Source of the DNA: Protaetiibacter sp. SSC-01
GTDB taxonomy: Bacteria; Actinomycetota; Actinomycetes; Actinomycetales; Microbacteriaceae
Direction of reading: 5' to 3'
Assembly: GCF_014483895.1 (NCBI RefSeq)
Contig: NZ_CP059987.1
Coordinates: 1,984,001 to 2,048,000 of the forward strand
Length of the DNA: 64,000 nt
The notes beneath the pieces are model-generated. The model was not told the DNA's origin. It did no database searches and worked only from the letters and a program-made list of their open reading frames with translations. Shown piece after piece: positions 3,221 through 43,254 of the stretch. The translations under genes and the position numbers were made by a program. Position 1 is the first letter of the stretch. Each line of letters opens with the position of its first letter.

Positions 3221-3660
3221 GCTGGTTGAGTAGCCCGCGCAGCGGGCGTATCGAAACCCGACGGACGTATGACGTCGGGCTGGTTTCGACACGCGCCTGC
3301 GGCGCTACTCAACCAGCGGGGTGACGCGCCTGCGGCGCTACTCAACCAGCGGGGTGGCGCGCCTGCGGCGCTACTCAACCAGCGCGGTGCGGCACACGCG
3401 CTCGCCGGAGTGCCGCGCAGCGGCTTATCACCGCTGGTCGAGTGCCCGCGCAGCGGGCGTATCGAGACCCGACGGACGTTCGACGTCGGCGTGGTTTCGA
3501 TACGCGCCTGCGGCGCTACTCAACCAGCGGGGTGCGCCGCCTGCGGCGCTACTCAACCAGCGGGGTGCGCCGCCTGCGGCGCTACTCAACCAGCGGAGCG
3601 CGGCGCCCGCGACGCTACTCAACCAGCGAGGCGCGGCGCCTGCGGCGCTCCTCAACCGAC
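3221..3660. repeat. Composite cluster of palindromic TTGAGTAG-family repeats, two similar modules
   Basis: This 440 bp gap between convergent genes is almost all repeat. Module 1: forward full copy 3221-3258, a short CCGACGGACGT hairpin, reverse full copy 3279-3317, then two reverse half-copies ending near 3350 and 3383. Module 2: forward copy 3434-3470, the same CGACGGACGT hairpin, reverse copy 3490-3527, then four more reverse half-copies to 3660. Half-copies read GCGCCTGCGGCGCTACTCAACC. The last one runs into the 3' end of crcB and supplies its stop codon. Confidence 0.9.
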
Positions 3661-4050: not shown

Positions 4051-4541
4051 TGGGCGGCCTCCGGATGCCGCAGCGAGCCGAGCAGGATGCCCGCGAACGT
4101 CGCCCCGGCGCCCACGAGCACCGTGCCGAGGCCGTACAGGGTGGCGAGCCATCCGTCGCCCGAACCGAACAGCAGCGCGGCGTCGGTCGCGAGGGCGCTG
4201 TAGGTCGTGAAGCCGCCGAGGAACCCCGTGCCGAGCAGCAGCCGCAGGCTGCGACGGATGCCGTGGTCGGGCCCGCGGCGCACGAGCTCCTCGAGCAGGA
4301 AGCCGAGCGCGAACGCTCCGACGAGGTTGGCGAGCAGTACAGCCCACGGGATGCCGCCCGCGGCAGGGATGAGGAGGGTGAGCGCCTCTCGGGCGGCCGT
4401 GCCGAGAGTGCCGCCGACGAAGACGAGCGCGAGGTTCGCGGGGGTGACGAGGGCGCGCGCGGGGGGCGCTGGCGGCACCTCGACGACGTCGGTGTCCGGG
4501 TCGCTGGGGAGCTCCGGGGCGGCGTCGGGGGCGGGGGCCAT
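4047..4541 (-). CDS. crcB: CrcB/Fluc fluoride channel subunit, partner copy
   Basis: A second CrcB/Fluc protein, 164 residues, encoded just upstream of the other and overlapping it by 4 bp. It has GGTLGTAAREALTLL, NLVGAFALGFLLEELV and GTGFLGGFTTYSALATD, matching the same helices. Many Gram-positive bacteria make the channel from two different Fluc proteins of opposite orientation, which fits this pair. An extra ~35-residue acidic and proline-rich N-terminus (PDTDVVEVPPAPPARA) precedes the first helix and is absent from the partner. No fluoride riboswitch was recognised upstream. Confidence 0.9.
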   Translation of the reverse strand: MAPAPDAAPELPSDPDTDVVEVPPAPPARALVTPANLALVFVGGTLGTAAREALTLLIPAAGGIPWAVLLANLVGAFALGFLLEELVRRGPDHGIRRSLRLLLGTGFLGGFTTYSALATDAALLFGSGDGWLATLYGLGTVLVGAGATFAGILLGSLRHPEAAQ

Positions 4542-9737: not shown

Positions 9738-9845
9738 GGTCTCGAGACGCGTCGCTTCGCGGCGCTCCTCGACCACCGGGCAGAGCGGCGGTCTCGGCCA
9801 TCTGGGGCAGAGCGGCGGTGCCGGGGCCCGGCGCTCCTCGACCGC
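9738..9845. repeat. Variant palindromic repeat (GGTCTCGAGACGC / GCTCCTCGACCA) and degenerate copy
   Basis: A copy at about 9738-9779 reads GTGGTCTCGAGACGCGTCGC, then TTCGCGGCGCTCCTCGACCACC. This is the same architecture as the TTGAGTAG repeats but with GTCGAGGAGC in place of GTTGAGTAGC. A degraded copy, GCGGTCTCGG to GCGCTCCTCGACCGCC, covers about 9789-9845. The intact variant also occurs inside ileS. Confidence 0.8.
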
Positions 9846-16227: not shown

Positions 16228-18951
16228 TCAGCCGAGCACGCCCGAGGCGAGAGCCACGACGAGGAGGGTGACGACCACGACCGCCATGCCGGCGGCCGCG
16301 ATGATGAGGGCGGTGAGGGCGCGGTTTCCGCGCTTCGGCTTGATGGTGCCGATGATCTCACGCGAGGACGTGTGCGAGCTGACCGCACGGATGGCGCGCA
16401 CCGGCTGCGAGTCGGTCGACGCGACCTGCGCGTCGCCCGGGTCGAGCAGGTTGTCGAGGTCCGACTCGTCGAGCTGCGCGGGCAGCGCGCCCGTCGAGGC
16501 GAGGCTCGCGGGGAGCGAGATGGACCCCGTCACGAGCACGTCTCCCGTGCTCCTGATGGGACCCGTGATGAGGTCGCCGTTCGGCACCTCAGGAAGCACG
16601 AGCGCGTTCGCGGTCGCCGACGAGACGCCCACGCTGCGCGAGATGGCGCCCGTGTCGGGCTGGGAGTCGTCCTCCCACTCGGCCTGACGCGACCAGTGGT
16701 TGCGGGGGCGCTCCCCCGGCACGGGCTGGGGCTGCGCCTGCTCGGGCTGCGGCTGATCGGGCTGCGGCTGCTCGGGCCGCGGCTGCTGCTGTGCGTCGGG
16801 CTGGCCCTCAGGCTGAGCCTCGGGCACGGCGCCCGACGGCAGGATGACGGCGTCGTCCGTCGGCGACGGCGTCGGCATACCGGGCGTGAGGCCCCACAGC
16901 GGCGGCGCCGAGGTGACGGGCGACGCGGATGCGGCAGGCGGCCACACGGGCGACTCCGACGCGGATGCGGCAGGCGGCCACACGGGCGACTCCGACGCGG
17001 TCGGCGGCCACGCGGGCGATTCGGATGCGGCGGGCGGCCACACGGGGGACGCGGACGCCGTGGGCGCCTGCTCCTCGACCTGCGGCTCCTCGACCTGCGG
17101 CTTCTCGGCCGGCTGCTGGTCGGCGGGCGCGGGCTCCTGCACCTCGGCCGGCGGCAGCTCGACGGGAGCCGCCGACGCGGACGACGACGGCACCGGCTGC
17201 CAGGTGTTCGGCTCCGGGAGGTACGGCTCGGGCACGTAGGGCTCGGCCGCGGACTGCTCGTGCTGCACGGCGGGCTGAGGCGCGGCCGACGGGCGGTCGT
17301 CCGCATCCGGCACGACCGGGAGCGAGCCGCTCTGGGCGCGGAAGAGTGCCTGCAGGCTCGCGATGGCATCCGTCTGCGGCTCGGCCGGCTCGATGAGCGG
17401 CGGAGGCGTGGGCTGCGACGACGACGCCTCGGGCTGCTCGTCGGCGGCCTCGTTCGCGGGCTGCTCGTTCCACGTGTGCTCGGCCTCGGCCGGAGTCTCG
17501 GGCTCGGCCGGACCCGCGAGCAGGTCATCGAACGACTGCGGCGCGGCGGGCTCCTGGCCGTAGGCAGGCGCGGTGGAGGCGCTGTACGCGGGAGGGGTCG
17601 ATCCGCCGAAGATGGGCGGCGTCGAGGCACCGTAGACCGGCGGGGCCGACGCCTCGGCGGGCGGCACGGGTGCCGCCGACCCTGTCGACGACTGCTCGGG
17701 GTACACGGGGGCGGTGGAGCCCCCGTAGGCGGGAGCCGCGGAGCCGCCGTAGGCGGGCGGGGTCGACGCGCCGTGGGCGGGCGGGGTCGAGCCCTGCTGC
17801 TCGGGCGTGTGCTGCTCGGAACTCTCCTGCGAGGTGGCCGGCGCGGCGGACGCCTCGGCACGCTCCTGCGCCTCGCGCAGCGCGCGCAGCTCACGGCGGC
17901 TCATCGTGCCCTCGAACCCGGCGACCGGGCCGGCAGTGGGCCACGCAGGCGCCGCCGTCCCTCTCGTCCCGCTCTCCGCGGGCGCGGCGTCGGCGGGCAC
18001 GGCGCCGTCGGGCGCAGCGCCCTCGGGCGCAGCGTCAGCGGGGGCTGCGTCAGCGGGGGCTGCGTCAGCGGGGGCCGCGTCAGCGGGGGCCGCGTAGGCG
18101 GGCCCGGCCGACGCACCGTACGCAGGAGGCGTCGAAACAGCGTATGCGGGGCCCGCGGAAGCACCGTAGGCCGGCGGCGTGGATCCCCCGTCGACCGGCG
18201 GCTCGGATTCCCCGTGGACCGGCGGCGTGGAACCGTGCACGGGCGGCGTCGACCCATACGCAGGCGGCGTCGAGGCGAACACGGGCGGAGTCGAACCGTA
18301 GACCGGTGCGGCCGAGTCGCGGCCGGCATCCGCAGAGCCGTAAGCGGGACCGGCAGAGCCGTAGGTCGGGCCGGCAGAGCCGTAGGTCGGACCGGCAGAG
18401 CCGTAGGCCGGGCCGGCAGAACCGTAGGCGGGACCGGCAGAGCCGCCGTACTGCGGCGGGGCCGACGACGCATCCGGCACCTGGCCCGCGCTCGGCGGGA
18501 GGGGCGTGTCGTCGCGGTTCTGGGTCTGGTAGTCGAGGTCGGCGGGCTCGGCGGATGCGGGCGGCCGCCCGAGACGCGCCGCACGACGGCCCTCCGGGCT
18601 GTAATCGCGGTAGCGGTAGCCCGACGGCTGCTCCTGCTCGCCCGAGGCGGGGGCCGCATCCGCGTCGTCCGCTGCGACGGGTGGAGTGGTCGCCCACGAG
18701 GGCGCGACGGGCGCGTCGTACTGAGGCAGCGGCGCGCGCTCCTGCGTCACGTAGCTGAGCGGCTCGGGCGGCGCACTCGTCGGCCGCTGCTCGCCGCCGC
18801 CGTCCTGCGCTGCACCGTCTTGCGCGGCGCCGTCCTGGCCGGCGTCGCCACCGGTCGCGTCAGACTCAGCGGCCTCCGCGGCGCGAGCGGCAGCGGCCTC
18901 GCGCTCCCGGATCTCGCGGCGCGAAAGCGGCTGATCCTGGTAGGTCGTCAT
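16228..18951 (-). CDS. Tail-anchored Pro/Ala/Gly-rich repeat protein of unknown function
   Basis: A 907-residue, mostly disordered protein. It opens with a basic amphipathic motif [17 protein letters not shown], and a second [17 protein letters not shown] occurs near residue 360. Between and after these are three kinds of repeats: Y-G units ([14 protein letters not shown]), AAPAD units, and [10 protein letters not shown] decamers. Only the last ~120 residues look ordered ([20 protein letters not shown]), followed by one membrane helix at the very C-terminus ([20 protein letters not shown]) with almost nothing after it. It is thus a likely tail-anchored protein facing the cytoplasm. The ATG overlaps the nadD stop as ATGA. 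No function is known to me. Confidence 0.8.
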
Positions 18952-25551: not shown

Positions 25552-28020
25552 TCAGCTCGCGGCGTCGGGCGAACCCGCGGCCGACGACGCACGACGCGAG
25601 CGACGCGAACGTCCCTGCCCCGGCTTCTTCGGCTCCGGGAGCGCGTCGAGCACCGAGCCGAGCACGGCATCCGGGTCGACGACGGGGCGCGGCTGCTCGG
25701 TGCGCACCGGCTCGATCGGGATGTCGAGGATCTCGACGGGCGCCGCCGCGACGGCCTCGGCGACCTTCTCGGCCGGCAGCACGATGGGCGTCGTGTCGGT
25801 CGGCTGGTCGTCGTGGTGCACCGTCTTCGCCGCGATCTTCGCGAGCGCGTTCTTGACGTCATCGGTGATCTCGTGCGTGCCGGTCGTCTTGGGAGCGGAT
25901 GCGGGCGCCGCCCCTCCCCCGTTGCCGCCGCCGTTGCCGCCGCGGCCGCGACGACCGCGACCCGACGACGACGACGACTGCTCGTTCTGCTGACCGCCGC
26001 GGTGCTTGAACACCGGGTCGTGGTGCACGATGAGGCCGCGACCGGCGCACACGTCGCACGTCTCGCTGAACGACTCGAGCAGCCCGAGGCCGAGCTTCTT
26101 GCGCGTCATCTGCACGAGACCGAGCGAGGTGACCTCGGCCACCTGGTGCTTCGTGCGGTCGCGAGAGAGGCACTCGACGAGGCGACGCAGCACGAGGTCG
26201 CGGTTCGACTCGAGCACCATGTCGATGAAGTCGACGACGATGATGCCGCCGATGTCGCGCAGCCGCAGCTGGCGCACGATCTCCTCGGCGGCCTCGAGGT
26301 TGTTCTTGGTGACGGTCTCCTCGAGGTTGCCGCCCGAACCCACGAACTTGCCCGTGTTGACGTCGACGACGGTCATCGCCTCGGTGCGGTCGATGATGAG
26401 CGACCCACCCGAGGGCAGCCACACCTTGCGCTCGAGGGCCTTCTCGATCTGCTCGGTGATGCGGTACTTGTCGAAGCTGTCGACCTCGTCGGCGTAGCGC
26501 TCGACGCGGTCGAGCAGGTCGGGGGCGACCGCCGAGAGGTACTTCTCGATCGTCGCCTGCGCGTCGTCGCCCGCGATGATGAGCTTCTGGAAGTCCTCGT
26601 TGAAGACGTCACGCACGATCTTGAGCAGGAGGTCGGGCTCCGAGTGCAGGAGCGCCGGGGCCTGCTGCGTCTCGACCGCGCGCTCGATCTCGGCCCACTG
26701 GGCGGTGAGACGCTGCACGTCGAGCGTCAGCTGCTCCTCGGTGGCGCCCTCCGCGGCGGTGCGCACGATGACGCCCGCGTCATCCGGCAGCACCTCCTTG
26801 AGGATCTTCTTGAGGCGCGCGCGCTCGGTGTCGGGCAGCTTGCGGCTGATGCCGTTCATCGAACCGCCGGGCACGTACACGAGGTAGCGGCCGGGCAGGC
26901 TCACCTGGCTCGTGAGTCGGGCGCCCTTGTGGCCGACCGGGTCTTTCGTGACCTGCACGAGCACGCGGTCGCCGGGCTTGAGCGCGAGCTCGATGCGGCG
27001 GGGCTGGTTCTTGGCGTCGCCCTCCTGGTTGGCCGCGGCGGCCTCCCAGTCGACCTCGCCCGAGTAGAGCACGGCGTTGCGGCCGCGGCCGATGTCGACG
27101 AACGCCGCCTCCATGCTCGGCAGCACGTTCTGCACGCGGCCGAGGTAGACGTTGCCGATGAGGCTCGCATCCTGCGCCCGCGCGACGTAGTGCTCGACGA
27201 GCACGCCGTCCTCGAGCACGCCGATCTGGATGCGGCCGAACTTCGAGCGCACGACCATGACGCGGTCGACCGACTCGCGGCGCGCGAGGAACTCGGCCTC
27301 GGTGATGACGGGACGGCGGCGACCGGCGTCGCGGCCGTCGCGGCGGCGCTGCTTCTTCGCCTCGAGACGCGTCGATCCCTTGACCTTCTGGGGCTCGGTG
27401 ATGGGCTCCGGCTGCTTGCGCGGCTGACGCACCTTCGTGACGGCGTTCGGGGCGTCGTCGCCCTCACGCGGCGCCTCGCCCGAGCGGCGGCGGTTGCGGC
27501 GGCGCGACGCACCCCCGGATGCCTCCTCATCGTCGGGCACGACCGGCGCGACGCCCACGGGCGGGGGCGGCGGCGCCTGGAAGATGAGGTCGAACGGCGA
27601 GAGCGGCGTCGGCACGACGGGCGCCTGCTGCTCGGGCTCGGCTGCAGCCTCGGGAGCTGCGGCGGCCTCGGGCTCGGTCGCGGCGGCCTCGGATGCGGCG
27701 GCCTCGGATGCGGCGGGCTCGGATGCGGCGGGCTCGGATGTCGCAGGCTCGGATGCTGCGGGCGCCTCGGCCTCGGCGGCGGGTCCGTCGGCGTCGGCAG
27801 CCGGAGCGTCGGCGGCGGGAGCCCCAGCGGCGGGAGCCTCGACAGCCGGACCCTCGGCGGCAGGCGCCTCGGCATCCGTCTTCTTGCGGCCGCGACCGCG
27901 ACCGAAGCGCTTGGGCTTCTCCGTCTTCTCCGTCTTCTCTGCCTTCTCGGCAGAGCCGGCCTCCGCGGGCGCGGGCTCTGAGTTCCCGGTAGGAACCTCG
28001 GGTACGTCGTTCTCCACCAT
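25552..28020 (-). CDS. rne: Ribonuclease E/G family endoribonuclease
   Basis: An 822-residue actinobacterial RNase E/G. The long N-terminal ~270 residues are disordered and rich in Ala, Glu and Pro (AASEPAASEAAASEAAATEP-like). The catalytic core then follows: S1-like domain (IGNVYLGRVQNVLPSMEAAF), the DNase I-like region GGIIVVDFIDMV and the catalytic acid region TVVDVNTGKFVGSG. The Zn-link is present as CDVCAGRGL. The C-terminal part holds a basic RGRRGRGGNGGGN tract that could bind RNA. Placing the disordered part before the core differs from E. coli. The ATG at 28020 has a GAGGAGC site. Confidence 0.93.
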   Translation of the reverse strand: MVENDVPEVPTGNSEPAPAEAGSAEKAEKTEKTEKPKRFGRGRGRKKTDAEAPAAEGPAVEAPAAGAPAADAPAADADGPAAEAEAPAASEPATSEPAASEPAASEAAASEAAATEPEAAAAPEAAAEPEQQAPVVPTPLSPFDLIFQAPPPPPVGVAPVVPDDEEASGGASRRRNRRRSGEAPREGDDAPNAVTKVRQPRKQPEPITEPQKVKGSTRLEAKKQRRRDGRDAGRRRPVITEAEFLARRESVDRVMVVRSKFGRIQIGVLEDGVLVEHYVARAQDASLIGNVYLGRVQNVLPSMEAAFVDIGRGRNAVLYSGEVDWEAAAANQEGDAKNQPRRIELALKPGDRVLVQVTKDPVGHKGARLTSQVSLPGRYLVYVPGGSMNGISRKLPDTERARLKKILKEVLPDDAGVIVRTAAEGATEEQLTLDVQRLTAQWAEIERAVETQQAPALLHSEPDLLLKIVRDVFNEDFQKLIIAGDDAQATIEKYLSAVAPDLLDRVERYADEVDSFDKYRITEQIEKALERKVWLPSGGSLIIDRTEAMTVVDVNTGKFVGSGGNLEETVTKNNLEAAEEIVRQLRLRDIGGIIVVDFIDMVLESNRDLVLRRLVECLSRDRTKHQVAEVTSLGLVQMTRKKLGLGLLESFSETCDVCAGRGLIVHHDPVFKHRGGQQNEQSSSSSGRGRRGRGGNGGGNGGGAAPASAPKTTGTHEITDDVKNALAKIAAKTVHHDDQPTDTTPIVLPAEKVAEAVAAAPVEILDIPIEPVRTEQPRPVVDPDAVLGSVLDALPEPKKPGQGRSRRSRRASSAAGSPDAAS

Positions 28021-29997: not shown

Positions 29998-30043
29998 GGT
30001 TTCGATACGCGTGCGGCCTGCTGCCGCCCGCTACTCAACCAAC
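29998..30043 (-). repeat. Palindromic TTGAGTAG-family repeat at phosphatase 3' end
   Basis: A copy in reverse orientation: GGTTTCGATACGCGTGCGGC, then CTGCTGCCGCCCGCTACTCAACCAAC. Its core differs from other copies, though the arms are conserved. The stop codon of the phosphatase gene (TGA, 30035-30037 on the minus strand) lies inside the GTTGGTTGAGTAGC arm. Confidence 0.9.
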
Positions 30044-31742: not shown

Positions 31743-33122
31743 CTACTTCCAGCCCTCCGCCTCGGCGAGCTCGATGACCTCGCCGACGAGCGTGATCGAG
31801 CCCGTCACGACGACGGCGCGGCGGGGCGACTGCGCCGCCCATGCGCGCGCGGCGTCCATGGCATCCGGAAGCGTCTCGTGTACGAGCACCGCGTCGGGCG
31901 CGACGTCTTCGCGCACGATGTCGGCGAGCTCGTCGGCGGGGATCGCGCGATCGGACCCGGACTCCGTGACGTCGACGCGCGCCGCGAGCGCCGCGAGCTC
32001 GCGCACGATGCCGTGGGCGTCCTTGTCGGCGAGCACGCCGAGCACGAACGCGAACTCGTCGAAGTCGAAGTACTCGCGCAGCGCCGCGGCGAGCGCGGCC
32101 GCGCCGTGCGGGTTGTGGGCGGCATCGACGAGCACTGTCGGCTCGATGCCGACGAGCTGCAGTCGACCGGGCGAGGTGACCTGACCGAGGCCCTCGGCCA
32201 CGACATCCTGGTCGAGCGCGACCGTGCCGTCGCCCAGGAACGACTCGACGGCCGCGACCGCGACGGCGGCGTTCTGCGCCTGGTGGTCGCCGTAGAGCGG
32301 CAGGAACACGTCGCGGTAGCGGCCCACGCGGCCGCGGATGTCGACGAGCTGGCCGCCGACGGCGACCGTCGTCGACTCGAGCGCGAAGTCGACGCGCTCG
32401 ATCGACACGTGCGCCTCGTCGCGGGCGGCCGCCTCGCGCAGCTCGTCCATCGCCTCGATCGACTGGATCGCCGTGACGACGGACGCGGCGGGCTTGATGA
32501 TGCCGGCCTTCGTGCGCGCGATCTCGGCGACGGTGTCACCGAGGCGCTTCGTGTGGTCGAGCGCGATGGGCGTGAAGACCGCGACCTGGCCGTCGGCGAC
32601 ATTCGTGGAGTCCCACTCGCCGCCCATGCCGACCTCGAGGATCACGACGTCGACGGGCGCGTCGGCGAAGCTCGCGAACGCGAGCACCGTGAGCGCCTCG
32701 AAGAAGGTCAGCGTCTCCTCGCCGTTCGCGGTGAGCTCGGCGTCGACCATGAGCAGGTAGGGCTGGATGTCGTCCCAGTTGCGCGCGAACGCTTCGTCGC
32801 TGATGGGCTCGCCGTCGATCATGATGCGCTCGGTGACGCGTTCGAGGTGCGGGCTCGTGAGGAGGCCCGTGCGGAGCCCCGTCGCGCGCAGGAGCGACTC
32901 GATCATGCGGCTCGTCGAGGTCTTGCCGTTGGTGCCGGTGATGTGCACGACGGGCGCCGCCCGGTGCACGTCGCCGAGCAGCTCGACGGCGCGACGGGTC
33001 GGCTCGAGCCGCGGCTGCGGCGCGGCCTCGCCCACGCGTCCGAGCAGCTGCTCGTAGGCCGCGTCGGCGGCCTTGCGGTGCTCCGCTGCCTCGAAGTCCG
33101 GCGCCTCCGGGTCGTCCGTCAT
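31743..33122 (-). CDS. folC: Bifunctional dihydrofolate / folylpolyglutamate synthase
   Basis: A 459-residue Mur ligase-like enzyme that adds glutamate to dihydropteroate and folates. The ATP loop is [19 protein letters not shown], followed by the [15 protein letters not shown] signature and [16 protein letters not shown]. The C-terminal domain has [17 protein letters not shown]. Length and motifs are complete. It overlaps ileS upstream by 4 bp, so ileS, folC, DUF4233, ndk and the phosphatase gene form one long co-directional block that could be read from the ileS T-box promoter. Confidence 0.97.
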
Positions 33123-36100
33123 GCTCGGTTCACCTCGATCGTCACGGCGGAGGCGTCGCCCACCGGCGTCTCTCCCCCCTCAGCCTCACCGACGACGAGG
33201 TCGGTCGCAAGCGTCTCCCCCGCGATGAGCTCGCGGTGCGCCTCGATCGCGGCCACGGCATCCGCGTCTCCCGTGAGGGTGAGACGGATGCGGTCGGTGA
33301 CCTCGAGCCCGGCGTCCTTGCGGGCCTGCTGCACGACGCGCACGACGTCGCGCGCGAGGCCCTCGGCCGCGAGCTCGGGGGTCACGTTCGTGTCGAGCAC
33401 GACGAAACCGCCCGACGACAGGAACGCGATGGCGCTCGACGCGTCGGCGACGGTGAGCTCGAGCTCGTACTCGCCCTCCTGCAGCGCGACGCCGCCCGCG
33501 ACGACCGAGTCGCCATCGGCGCCTGCTTCGACTGCCCAGTCCCCGGCCTTCGACGCCTGGATGACGCGCTGCACGTCCTTGCCGATGCGCGGCCCGAGGG
33601 CGCGCGCGTTGACGGTGAGGCGGCGCGTGATGCCGTAGTCGTCGAGGCTCGAGTCGGCGAGCGGCACGAGGTCGAGCGCCTTGACGTTGAGCTCGTCGCG
33701 CACGATGTCGGCGAAGCCCGCGAGCGCCTCCGCGTCGGGCGCGACGATCGTGAGCTTCGCGAGCGGCAGACGCACACGCAGCTGACGGGCCTTGCGCAGC
33801 GCGAGCCCCGACGAGGCGACCTCGCGCACGCGGTCCATCGTGCGCACGAGCTCGGTGTCGACGGGGAACTCGGATGCGTCGGGCCAGTCTTCGAGGTGCA
33901 CGCTGCGGCCGCCCGTGAGCCCGCGCCAGATCTCCTCGCTCACGAGCGGGAGCAGCGGGGCCGCGAGGCGCGTGAACGTCTCGAGCACCGTGAAGAGCGT
34001 GTCGAACGCGTCGCGGTCGTCGCCCGCCCAGAAGCGGTCGCGGCTGCGACGCACGTACCAGTTGGTGAGCACCTCGGCGAACTCGCGCAGCGCCTCGGCG
34101 GCGAGCGGGGTGTCGAAGTCCTCGAGCCGCGCCGTGACCTCGTGGATGGCGTCGCGCGTCTTCGCGAGCAGGTAGCGGTCGAGGGGGTGCGCCGAGTCGG
34201 TGCGGCGGCGCGCGGTGTAACCGGCGTGGTCTCGAGACGCGTCGCCCTCCGGGCGGCGCTCCTCGACCAGCTTCGATGCCGAGTTGGCGTAGAGGGTGAA
34301 GAAGTAGTAGCTCGACCACAGCGGCAGCATGACTTCGCGCACGCCCTGGCGGATGCCCTCCTCCGTGACGACGAGGTTGCCGCCGCGGATGACGGAACCC
34401 GACAGCAGGAACCAGCGCATGGCATCCGCGCCGTCGCGGTCGAAGACCTCCGACACGTCGGGGTAGTTGCGCAGCGACTTCGACATCTTCTGGCCGTCGG
34501 AGCCGAGCACGATGCCGTGGCTCAGCACGTTCTTGTAGGCCGGGCGGTCGAAGAGCGCCGTCGCGAGCACGTGCATGACGTAGAACCAGCCGCGCGTCTG
34601 GCCGATGTACTCGACGATGAAGTCGGCGGGGTTGTGCCCCGGCTCCCCCTCGACACCGTCGAACCACTCGCGGTTCTCGAACGGGTAGTGCACCTGCGCG
34701 AACGGCATCGAGCCCGAGTCGAACCACACGTCGAGCACGTCCTCGATGCGACGCATGACCGACGTGCCCGTGGGGTCGTCGGGGTTCGGGCGCGTGAGGT
34801 CGTCGATGTACGGGCGGTGCAGGTTCACCTCGCCGTTCTCGTCGCGCGGCAGAGTGCCGAAGTCGCGCTCGAGCTCCTCGAGCGAACCGTAGACGTCGAC
34901 GCGCGGGTACTCGGGGTCGTCCGACTTCCACACCGGGATGGGGCTGCCCCAGTAGCGGTTGCGGCTCACCGACCAGTCGCGCGCGTTCGCGAGCCACTTG
35001 CCGAACTGGCCGTGCTTGACGTTCTCGGGCACCCAGTTGATCTGCTCGTTGAGCTCGATCATGCGGTCCTTGAACTCGGGCACGCGCACGAACCAGCTCG
35101 AGACCGCCTTGTAGATGAGCGGCTTGCGGCAGCGCCAGCAGTGCGGGTAGCTGTGCTCGTAGCTCTTGAGCTGCAAGAGGCGCTTCTCCGCGCGCAGCTT
35201 CTGGATGAGCGGCTTGTTGGCCTCGTCCCAGCGGAGCCCCGCGACATCCGTCACGGCCGGCAGGAAGCGGCCGCCGTCGTCGAGCGACAAGATGACGGGG
35301 ATGCCGGCCGCGGCGCTCGTGACCTGGTCGTCCTCGCCGTAGGCGGGCGCCTGGTGCACGATGCCCGTGCCCTCGCCCGTCGCGACGTACTCGGCGACGA
35401 GGATCTGGAACGCCTCCGGCCCGTACGCGTCGGCGTAGTAGTCCCACAGGAAGTCGTAGCGGATGCCGCCGAGCTCGGCGCCCGTGAAGCGGCGCTCCTC
35501 GACCGCGGCGAGCGCGGCAGCGGCATCCGGGTACCCGAGGTCCTTCGCGTACGACGCGACCGTGTCGGCGGCGAGGAGGAAGCGCGCGGCGTCGCCCTCG
35601 AGGCCGTTCGCTGCGCCGTTCGGCCCGGCGGGAACGACGACGTAGACGATCTCGGGGCCGACCGCGAGGGCGGCGTTCGTGGGGAGGGTCCACGGGGTCG
35701 TCGTCCAGGCGAGCGCGTTGACGGCGGTGAGGCCGAGCACCTCCGCCTTCTCGCCCACGAGCGGGAAGGTCACGGTGACCGACTGGTCCTGGCGCTGCTG
35801 GTAGACGTCGTCGTCCATGCGCAGCTCATGGTTCGAGAGCGGCGTCTCGTCGTTCCAGCAGTACGGCAGCACGCGGAAGCCCTCGTAGGCGAGGCCCTTG
35901 TCGTAGAGCTGCTTGAACGCCCAGATGACGGACTCCATGAAGCTCACGTCGAGCGTCTTGTAGTCGTTCTCGAAGTCGACCCAGCGCGCCTGACGCGTGA
36001 CGTAGTCCTGCCACTCCTGCGTGTAGTGCAGCACCGACTCGCGCGCCTTCGCGTTGAAGACGCCGACGCCCATCTCCTCGATCTCGTCCTTGGTCGTGAT

Positions 36101-36439
36101 GCCGAGCTGGCGCATCGCCTCGAGCTCCGCGGGGAGGCCGTGGGTGTCCCAGCCGAAGCGGCGGTGCACCTGCTTGCCGCGCATCGTCTGGAAGCGCGGG
36201 AAGACGTCCTTGGCGTAGCCCGTGAGCAGGTGGCCGTAGTGCGGCAGGCCGTTCGCGAAGGGCGGGCCGTCGTAGAACACCCACTCGGGGTCGCCCGCGC
36301 GGGCGTCGACGGAGGCCTCGAAGGTGCCGTCGGCCTTCCAGAAGGCGAGGATCTGCTTCTCGATCTCGGGGAAGCGCGGCGAGGCGGGAACGCCCTCGCC
36401 CCGAGCGTCGTCGGGCGTCGCGTTGCGGGGGTAGCTCAT
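33119..36439 (-). CDS. ileS: Isoleucyl-tRNA synthetase
   Basis: An 1106-residue class I synthetase that charges tRNA-Ile and edits Val. The HIGH-like motif is [12 protein letters not shown] (near residue 65), and [12 protein letters not shown] (about residue 648) is the KMSKS loop. The size fits the eukaryote-like IleRS type common in actinobacteria. The ATG at 36439 is preceded by a T-box leader. Residues 724-738 ([15 protein letters not shown]) are encoded by an in-frame 45 bp copy of an intergenic repeat; normal homologues continue directly from the helix into the RTDS...DRYLLAKT segment. Confidence 0.96.
34226..34270 (-). repeat. Palindromic repeat (CTCGAGGAGC variant) inserted in frame in ileS
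   Basis: The plus strand reads GTGGTCTCGAGACGCGTCGC, CCTCCGGGCG and GCGCTCCTCGACCAG, the same variant as at 9738-9779. It is exactly 45 bp and starts on an ileS codon boundary (residue 724). This variant has GTCGAGGAGC where the common form has GTTGAGTAGC, so it carries no TGA or TAG on the coding strand. Confidence 0.85.
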
Positions 36440-38120: not shown

Positions 38121-39060
38121 ATGAGCGACGACACCCCCACGCAGCGCTACCCCGAGGGCTTCCCTCCCCCGGGCGGGCCGAAGCCGGGCGACGGGCAGGG
38201 CGCGCAGCCGTCGGCCGGGCAGCCGGGCGCGGGGCAGCAGGGCGCCGGGCAGCCGGGCGCGGGGCAGCCGGCCGCGCAGCCGTCGGCTGGGCAGCCGGGC
38301 GCCGGGCAGCAGGGCGCTGGGCAGCCCGGCGCTGGGCAGCAGGGCGCCGACGAGCCGACGCAGGCGATGCCCCCCCCCGCCCCCCCTGACCTCCGCGCCG
38401 CCCGCGCCGGCCCCCCCCCCCCCCGCGCGCCCGCCCGCCGCGACGATCCCGCTCGCCGACCCGGCACCCGCCGCGGCAGCCGTCCCGCCCGCGGCCGTCC
38501 CGCCCGCCGCGCCCACGGCATCCGGTGACGGCGACGGCGAGCGCCGCGGCAAGGGCCTCATCATCGCGCTCGCGATCGTCGCCGGTCTGCTGCTCGCCGC
38601 GCTCATCGCCCTGCTCGTGTGGCTGGCGACGAGCGGAGGCACGCCGAGCGCGGACCCGACCGAGACCGCGTCGGTCTCCCCGTCCCCGAGCGAGACGCCG
38701 TCGGAGACGCCGAGCGAGGACCCGACGCCGAGCGAGACGCCCTCCGAGGAACCCCCGCCTCCCCCGCCGCCCGCCGACGCGATCTCGAGCTTCACCGCAT
38801 CCGCGCAGGACGTCGACTGCTCGGGTGGCGTACCCGTGCCCGTGACCTTCAGCTGGACCACGAGCGGCACGACCGTCTGGTTCGGCGTCGGCACGGACGA
38901 CGCGCGCGCCGCACCGTACGAGTCCGGGCTCCAGCCGAACGACACGATAGGCATCGACTACCAGTGCGGCCAGCCCGACGGCCAACAGCGCTACACGATC
39001 ACCGTGCAGCGCACCGACGGCGCCTTCGAATCGGAGACCGTCGTCATCCGCGAGTCCTGA
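38121..39060 (+). pseudogene. Frameshifted Pro-rich single-span membrane protein (possibly sequencing error or phase-variable)
   Basis: The 5' part (from ATG 38121) encodes MSDDTPTQRYPEGF and a Gly-Gln-Pro repeat (AGQPGAGQQG units). The 3' part, in the +1 frame, encodes TIPLADPAPAAAAVPP, then a membrane helix (GLIIALAIVAGLLLAALIAL), a Ser/Thr/Pro linker and a folded external domain with two cysteines (VDCSGG, DYQCGQ). Removing one C from C9 (38370-38378) joins them smoothly through PLTSAPPAPAPPPP; removing one from C14 (38411-38424) would also restore the frame. I read this as one gene with a homopolymer-tract slip. Function unknown. Confidence 0.7.
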
Positions 39061-42529: not shown

Positions 42530-42757
42530 CTGGTTTCGACACGCCCGCTGCGCGGGCTACTCAACCAGCGGTGAACGGCCGCTGGTTGAGTAGCGGCGCA
42601 GCCGCGTGTCGAAACCAGCCCCCGCTCAACACCCCATCGCGTCGCCCCACCCGCTGGTTGAGTAGCGGCGCAGCCGCGTGTCGAAACCAGCCCGCGCACT
42701 ACTCCCCCTTCGCAACACCGCTGGTTGAGTAGCGGCGCAGCCGCGTGTCGAAACCAG
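42530..42757. repeat. Four TTGAGTAG-family palindromic repeats between convergent genes
   Basis: One reverse copy (42530-42569) is followed by three forward copies (42581-42617, 42653-42690 and 42720-42757). The three forward ones share the core AGCGGCGCAGCCGCGTGTCG and are nearly identical, pointing to recent amplification. They fill the 261 bp gap between the small protein gene and the GIY-YIG gene. Confidence 0.92.
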
Positions 42758-42765
42758 CCCACGCA

Positions 42766-43065
42766 CTACTCCGCCGTCCGCCGCCGGTACGCGCTCCGAC
42801 TCAACGACGGCAGCAGCGAGAACTCCCCGCGGATGAGCGCCTCGCGCTTCGCCCGCGACCACCCCTGCACGCGTTTCTCGATCCCGTACGCCTCCGCCAC
42901 AGACTCGGTCTCGTGCACGAACACGAGCTCGACGGGGAGCCGGCCCGAGGTGTATTCGGAGCCGTGGCCCGACGCGTGCTGCGCGGCGCGAGCCTCGACG
43001 TTGCGGGGGCTGCCGACGTAGTAGCTGCCGTCGCCGCAGCGGAGGATGTACATGCCGCAGGTCAT
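42766..43065 (-). CDS. GIY-YIG nuclease domain protein
   Basis: A 99-residue GIY-YIG protein. The motif is visible as CGMYILRCGDGSYYVGSPRN (Y-I-L and Y-V-G), with the catalytic Arg-like and Glu regions in VEARAAQH and EAYGIEKRVQGWSRAKREA. These small UvrC/homing-endonuclease-like proteins nick DNA or act in repair; most have no proven role. The ATG at 43065 is used as the domain begins directly after it. It is flanked on both sides by palindromic repeats, which may be chance or may reflect an association. Confidence 0.82.
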   Translation of the reverse strand: MTCGMYILRCGDGSYYVGSPRNVEARAAQHASGHGSEYTSGRLPVELVFVHETESVAEAYGIEKRVQGWSRAKREALIRGEFSLLPSLSRSAYRRRTAE

Positions 43066-43117
43066 GCGGGTAAGGATGCACGGCGCCCGGGGGCGCGGGG
43101 CGCGGGTCTCCACAGGG

Positions 43118-43254
43118 CTGGTTTCGACACGCCGCTTCGCGGCTACTCAACCAGCGGGTACGGGCTGGTTTCGACACGCCCGCTCCGCGGGCTACTCAAC
43201 CAGCGGTGAACGCCCGCTGGTTGAGTAGCGCCCGCAGGGCGCGTGTCGAAACCA
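43118..43254. repeat. Three TTGAGTAG-family palindromic repeats upstream of the GIY-YIG gene
   Basis: Two reverse copies (43118-43155 and 43165-43204) and one forward copy (43216-43254) fill the gap between the GIY-YIG start and the 3' end of the methyltransferase gene. The reverse ones start GGTTTCGACACGCC; the forward one has the core GCGCCCGCAGGGCGCGTGTC. Confidence 0.92.

Follow-up and report, generated by a model that had tools for sequence, protein, structure and literature searches.

The ileS gene in the stretch of DNA analyzed here (64,000 nucleotides of Protaetiibacter sp. SSC-01, contig NZ_CP059987.1, positions 1,984,001 to 2,048,000; hereafter the window) contains a block of 15 codons at 34226–34270 that, going by its sequence, is best read as one of many copies of a REP-like palindrome (family A), this one lying within a gene, in the linker between the catalytic and anticodon-binding parts of isoleucyl-tRNA synthetase (IleRS). 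The gene occupies 33119–36439 on the minus strand and encodes a protein of 1106 amino acids, identified by its open frame, its translation and the Pfam domains tRNA-synt_1, Anticodon_1 and DUF5915. The block, GTGGTCTCGAGACGCGTCGCCCTCCGGGCGGCGCTCCTCGACCAG in the window, is translated from the minus strand as 15 codons running from CTG to CAC and supplies residues 724–738 of the enzyme. These residues fall between tRNA-synt_1 (residues 29–685) and Anticodon_1 (residues 754–893). A first-pass annotation had proposed that a repeat sits in frame in ileS, that it adds 15 residues, and that it is not an annotation error. Minus-strand translation agreed with this proposal, and the intact frame together with the two intact flanking domains rules out an annotation error.

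The palindromic core of the block spans 41 nt (minus strand, 34228–34268, GGTCGAGGAGCGCC...GACGCGTCTCGAGACC) and has the arms GGTCGAGGAGCG and CGCGTCTCGAGACC. A second copy of this core, identical letter for letter, is present elsewhere in the genome (L173:1475–1515). Because all 41 nt are unchanged at the second place, the ileS copy looks young. Such exact identity could also point to an assembly artefact in which two repeat copies were joined into a chimera, since repeats are where assemblies fail. We consider this extremely unlikely, given that the frame runs intact over 1106 codons, that ileS sequence flanks the block on both sides, and that repeats occupy the same loop in the sister species and in other genera, which were assembled separately. 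When a 55-nt stretch was folded as single-stranded DNA, its predicted energy was −16.6 kcal/mol (z −2.3), and 5 of 200 shuffled sequences were equally stable. A fold more stable than most shuffles is what would be expected if the hairpin acted as RNA, through pausing or mRNA stability, with the peptide as a by-product; most relatives, however, have no repeat at this place and the repeat sequence varies between lineages, which makes such a role very unlikely.

Family A, defined by GTGGTCTCGAGACG, matched the 2.96-Mb genome exactly at 34 places and with one mismatch at 21 (55 hits, against 2 for the reversed pattern); the surroundings of all but one of the 55 (G000:C1:2812603) were covered, and two of these stretches, L143 and L168, contained no full element. 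Within the window a sequence scan found an intergenic family A copy at 9738–9774 on the minus strand, and the block in ileS is of the same repeat type, as had been claimed. A chance similarity is ruled out by the genome hit counts, by codon shuffles and by the exact 41-nt copy. A second family, B, with the arm TGGTTGAGTAGC, gave 219 hits in this genome. Its copies in the window include two in tandem on the plus strand at 511–585, copies in both orientations at 3224–3525, one on the minus strand at 29998–30040 (GGTTGAGTAGC...GTATCGAAACC), whose aligned place in the sister genome G003 is without a recognized copy, and a cluster of seven recognized copies in both orientations at 42532–43253, where the sister has two recognized copies at the aligned place. 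The copies at 3224–3525 overlap a 168-nt unit that occurs in two copies, 90% identical, at 3233–3611. The window also contains direct repeats, mostly of 15 to 36 bases and in register, at 16881–18467, 27630–27857 and 38180–38368, which are probably low-complexity protein segments.

Both families resemble REP sequences, which are palindromes of 20–40 bp: the cores are mostly 33–43 nt long with arms that pair, and the repeats are multicopy (55 A and 219 B hits) and lie mostly between genes. The expectation that such repeats stay outside genes was correct for 43 of the 49 recognized family A elements, which were not scored as coding, and failed for the six that were; likewise, 38 of the 39 family B elements sampled were not scored as coding. 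Family B contains GTAG within GAGTAGC and family A contains CGTC within GCGTCTC, candidates for the GTAG or CGTC tag that REPs have at one end of the stem. The search for a parent element covered the Y1_Tnp domain (PF01797) of RAYT-type transposases, which was found in none of the nine genomes of the genus. The domain was present in three of 60 relatives in all and in five of 14 control genomes. Repeats borne by a RAYT are thus unsupported in this genus, and the absence counts against our main reading in that it leaves the account with no machinery to move the repeats. A near search of a plasmid collection returned three uninformative records. MITEs have a target-site duplication and a parent transposon; for the family B copy at 29998, the aligned place in G003 has diverged too far for ends to be defined.

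The relatives' IleRS sequences were aligned for an extra block at residues 724–738, and the block proved absent from all 29 others. We also looked for the same residues in relatives that lack the repeat, a case that would speak against an insertion, and found none. An ancient conserved feature of IleRS is thereby ruled out. The closest IleRS, that of G003, is 96% identical and has an equally long loop; the DNA encoding it there is a family B repeat, AGCGGATTGAGTAGCCCGCCGGAGGCGGGCGTGTCGAAAACCACC, in the same place and the same orientation and read in another frame. G003 and the window genome are the only two of the nine genomes of the genus with a repeat in the ileS loop, and the G003 genome has 33 family B and 5 family A hits. 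Since G003 is occupied at the same site, no empty site stands beside the window allele, and neither a clean empty site nor a target-site duplication was obtained for it. The suggestion of a tolerated insertion is consequently borne out as far as a repeat copy, read in frame and absent from 29 IleRS sequences, goes, whereas the exact 45-bp event is one that we infer. As a side observation, contig G004:C1 of a congener has two ileS loci, at about 29.5 kb and 3.264 Mb, near both ends of the contig, which is perhaps an untrimmed circular overlap.

Seven further lineages were found to have repeats in the same ileS loop. Family A is present in the loop of Galbitalea sp. SE-J8, which is 66 residues long, and in that of G143, and the loop of G141 contains two inverted family B copies. 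A third family, C (CCTGAGCCTGTCGAAGG), occupies the loops of G101, G169 and G304 and, in reversed orientation, that of Microbacterium algeriense, and two metagenome-assembled genomes contain a related hybrid repeat; the family C and hybrid patterns were written only after the loops had been seen. The loop commonly comprises 20–23 residues, and repeats add roughly 8 to 46 more. A scan of 121 ileS genes for full elements returned 16 hits, 14 of them in the loop, whereas codon-shuffled sets averaged 0.2 each. Among the 110 of these genes that were chosen blind to the loop, which include some species twice (L011 and L057, for example), a full element was found in the loop in six, the window's own included, and elsewhere in the gene in two. 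Of the other 11 genes, five had been picked because their loop contains a repeat and six as neighbors. The regular expression for the loop parsed 102 of the 110, and the eight missed ones were covered by the element scan. Patterns of half an element proved too loose (7.2 hits per shuffled set) and were discarded, and the loops of L060, L092 (from the same genome as L226) and L218, which showed weak resemblances, were not counted.

Two observations concern repeats outside this loop. G020 (L038) has a family B repeat in minus orientation at about codon 279 of ileS, in a second, different IleRS loop. In M. algeriense (L120), a core of family C with no more than one mismatch lies near the IleRS N terminus, at nucleotide 39 from the matched start, and may be there by chance.

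A repeat-free IleRS query was also run against the genomes of the family (Microbacteriaceae) and matched in 295 of 299. Row coordinates were seen for 150 of the 299, plus 76 of 80 that were sent again for split, missing or weak matches; nine more genomes were read in the IleRS comparison, and about 59 were judged by E-value and match number only. Split matches occurred in 12 genomes, of which seven (the window genome included) have a repeat in the loop, four have no recognized repeat and one has a contig break. Among 20 genomes fetched for their long loops, 13 had no recognized repeat in the loop, so much of the loop growth is not visibly driven by repeats.

On a tree of 121 IleRS sequences built with the loop columns excluded, the 11 occupied rows require at least nine changes, eight of them forced by well supported branches; some of these changes may be losses. 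The occupied rows are slightly clustered, as shuffling gave a mean of 10.7 changes and as few as nine in 13 of 500 shuffles. Close neighbors with empty loops exist: G107 and G220 stand beside G304 and G169 and have 36 and 82 family C hits in their genomes, none of them in the loop.

In most of the measured cases the repeat family found in the loop is multicopy in its own genome. Family C gave 469, 406 and 34 genome hits in G101, G169 and G304, respectively, all of which have C in the loop, and the A/B arm gave 322 hits in the Galbitalea genome (G060) and 56 in G143. In G141 loop and genome agree only weakly, with 11 A/B arm hits versus 4 for the reversed pattern, and for G105, which has the hybrid in its loop, the counted patterns gave 0 and 3 hits.

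We then considered where the block would lie in the protein. In a sequence alignment, Thermus IleRS (1ILE) has a shorter, unrelated stretch where the block sits. An AlphaFold model of the full-length protein (mean pLDDT 60, with most of the catalytic part below 50) was set aside and replaced by a model of a 266-residue fragment computed from 76 sequences. In this fragment model the insert falls in two ten-residue blocks with pLDDT values of 55 and 51, flanked by blocks at 84 and 88; low confidence is not confined to the insert, as the first 60 residues average 42–62. The block is predicted to occupy a low-confidence stretch between two helices.

The ileS copy is one of six coding elements among the 49 of family A. 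The others lie in gatB, in nadB, in pabB (two elements) and in a C-terminal tail without a known domain. In addition, the linker of a cydDC-like transporter of the window genome contains one B and one A copy with the frame open through both; these fell short of the coding threshold because each flanks the other. Among 39 family B elements sampled from 18 stretches, one scored as coding and one weakly so, both in one long frame. At L271:2511–2545 and 4446–4482, at least two family B elements in opposite orientations lie in one open frame of 1625 codons. Orthologs were scanned in seven congeners (G004 being left out for gatB, nadB, pabB and cydDC) at no more than one mismatch per arm, a threshold at which codon shuffles gave 0.0 hits per gene. 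For gatB, family A was present in the window genome and G006 and no repeat was found in G001, G002, G003, G005, G007 or G008. The nadB genes of the window genome, G002, G005 and G008 have repeats, and those of G001, G003, G006 and G007 have none. For pabB, the window genome and G002 have family A, G005 and G006 have family B, and G001, G003, G007 and G008 have neither. Repeats were also found in the cydDC-like linker of the window genome, G005 and G008, with no locus found in G002 and only part of one in G007. In the two repeat-poorest genomes, G001 and G007, family B gave no hits and family A gave 5 and 4, respectively, and none of their ileS, gatB, nadB and pabB genes has a repeat (at no more than one mismatch per arm for the latter three). 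Allowing three mismatches per arm brought the scan to chance level, about 1–3 hits per shuffled gene, so that the worn copies which the eye picks out in pabB of G008 and in nadB of G003 are not established. The nadB pair has a spacer that, by eye, is alike in the window genome, G005 and G008, and this likeness suggests that inserts can persist and age.

These comparisons bear on the age of the ileS site. A repeat could have entered one old slot before the window genome and G003 split, with gene conversion or recombination later changing its family to A in the former and B in the latter. The two repeats are in register, have equal orientation and have matching outer flanks, and other genes offer parallels: a plus/minus pair in pabB is of family A in the window genome and G002 (the minus copy of G002 being worn, with up to two mismatches per arm) and of family B in G005, and the nadB pair, with its spacer as judged by eye, is common to the window genome, G005 and G008, where the plus copy is worn. 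Yet the reading frames and the inner flanks differ between the window genome and G003, and across genera the tree shows the occupied loops in scattered positions. We regard a single old slot with turnover as conceivable, although the balance tips against it.

The reading that we prefer, and hold to be very probable, is that REP-like repeats keep entering coding sequence and that selection leaves the frame-preserving copies in permissive linkers. Its starting points were observed directly, namely the family membership of the block, the identical copy elsewhere, the in-frame reading, the absence of the block elsewhere and the refilling of the same loop by other families. From these a sequence of events can be proposed. 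Repeats of the genome would be copied to new places at some rate, and copies landing in conserved coding sequence would be purged unless they kept the frame, were free of stops and lay in a permissive linker. Surviving copies would lengthen the loop with a peptide of putative role at most, and would then drift, decay or be replaced.

A bias in orientation and frame accompanies the occupied sites. In 10 of the 11 occupied ileS loops, which are not all independent of one another, the first copy is plus-oriented, and VVEER is the frame read by most of the plus-oriented family A copies in genes. These two regularities would also be in line with selection of the inserted peptide for function, for instance as a longer or more acidic linker that altered tRNA binding or stability. 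Different lineages nonetheless have unrelated peptides and most relatives have none, and a tolerance restricted to stop-free, hydrophilic readings would be expected to produce the same bias, so that a selected peptide seems unlikely to us. The bias fits tolerance of hydrophilic peptides, as the preferred reading has it, without proving it.

In-frame palindromes are known best from Rickettsia, and REP cases elsewhere are scattered. Rickettsia palindromic elements are described as palindromes found between genes and in frame in conserved protein genes, where they are apparently tolerated (Ogata, 2000, via PMC2229807). The repeats studied here are similar in being intergenic and also in frame in conserved genes (ileS, gatB, nadB, pabB and the cydDC-like gene) with an apparently tolerated insert. 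They differ in size and setting: the same source gives the Rickettsia elements as 105–146 bp long and specific to Rickettsia, whereas the A and B cores are mostly 33–43 nt, and our cores overall are about 17–43 bp, belong to several families, occur in Actinomycetota and fill one loop in many lineages.

A further parallel is provided by GTAG/CGTC REPs, short repeats which are reported within open reading frames of several bacteria, those of tRNA synthetases included, as is the case here (Di Nocera and co-workers, 2013, PMC3733652). The same article describes recB of two Xanthomonas species with different REPs at about the same site. GTAG REPs are tied there to RAYT transposases, whereas none was found in the nine Protaetiibacter genomes. 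The main text of that article contains none of the terms Arthrobacter, Clavibacter, Leifsonia and Micrococc-. RU-1/2/3 units, small mobile repeats in enterobacterial open reading frames, are likewise read in frame (Delihas, 2007, PMC2759123), but are MITE-like and 103–168 bp long. Among the matches listed in a literature search, which covered titles and the openings of abstracts and reached subscription journals only thinly, none dealt with in-frame REPs in Microbacteriaceae. What appears to be new is the Actinomycetota setting without a RAYT, the number of lineages that use one loop, and how often the family found there corresponds to the repeats of the genome.

As a broader and more speculative proposal, REP-like palindromes without a RAYT might keep invading the same permissive linkers of essential enzymes across the Microbacteriaceae, each lineage with its own abundant family; slots would turn over, linkers would record the family that is active, and some other mechanism would do the copying. 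The finding raises the question of what moves such repeats when RAYT transposases are absent. With several lineages filling one loop of an essential enzyme with different families, a conserved gene would serve as a natural reporter of repeat invasion, in which the gain, age and frame of repeats can be read against a fixed background.
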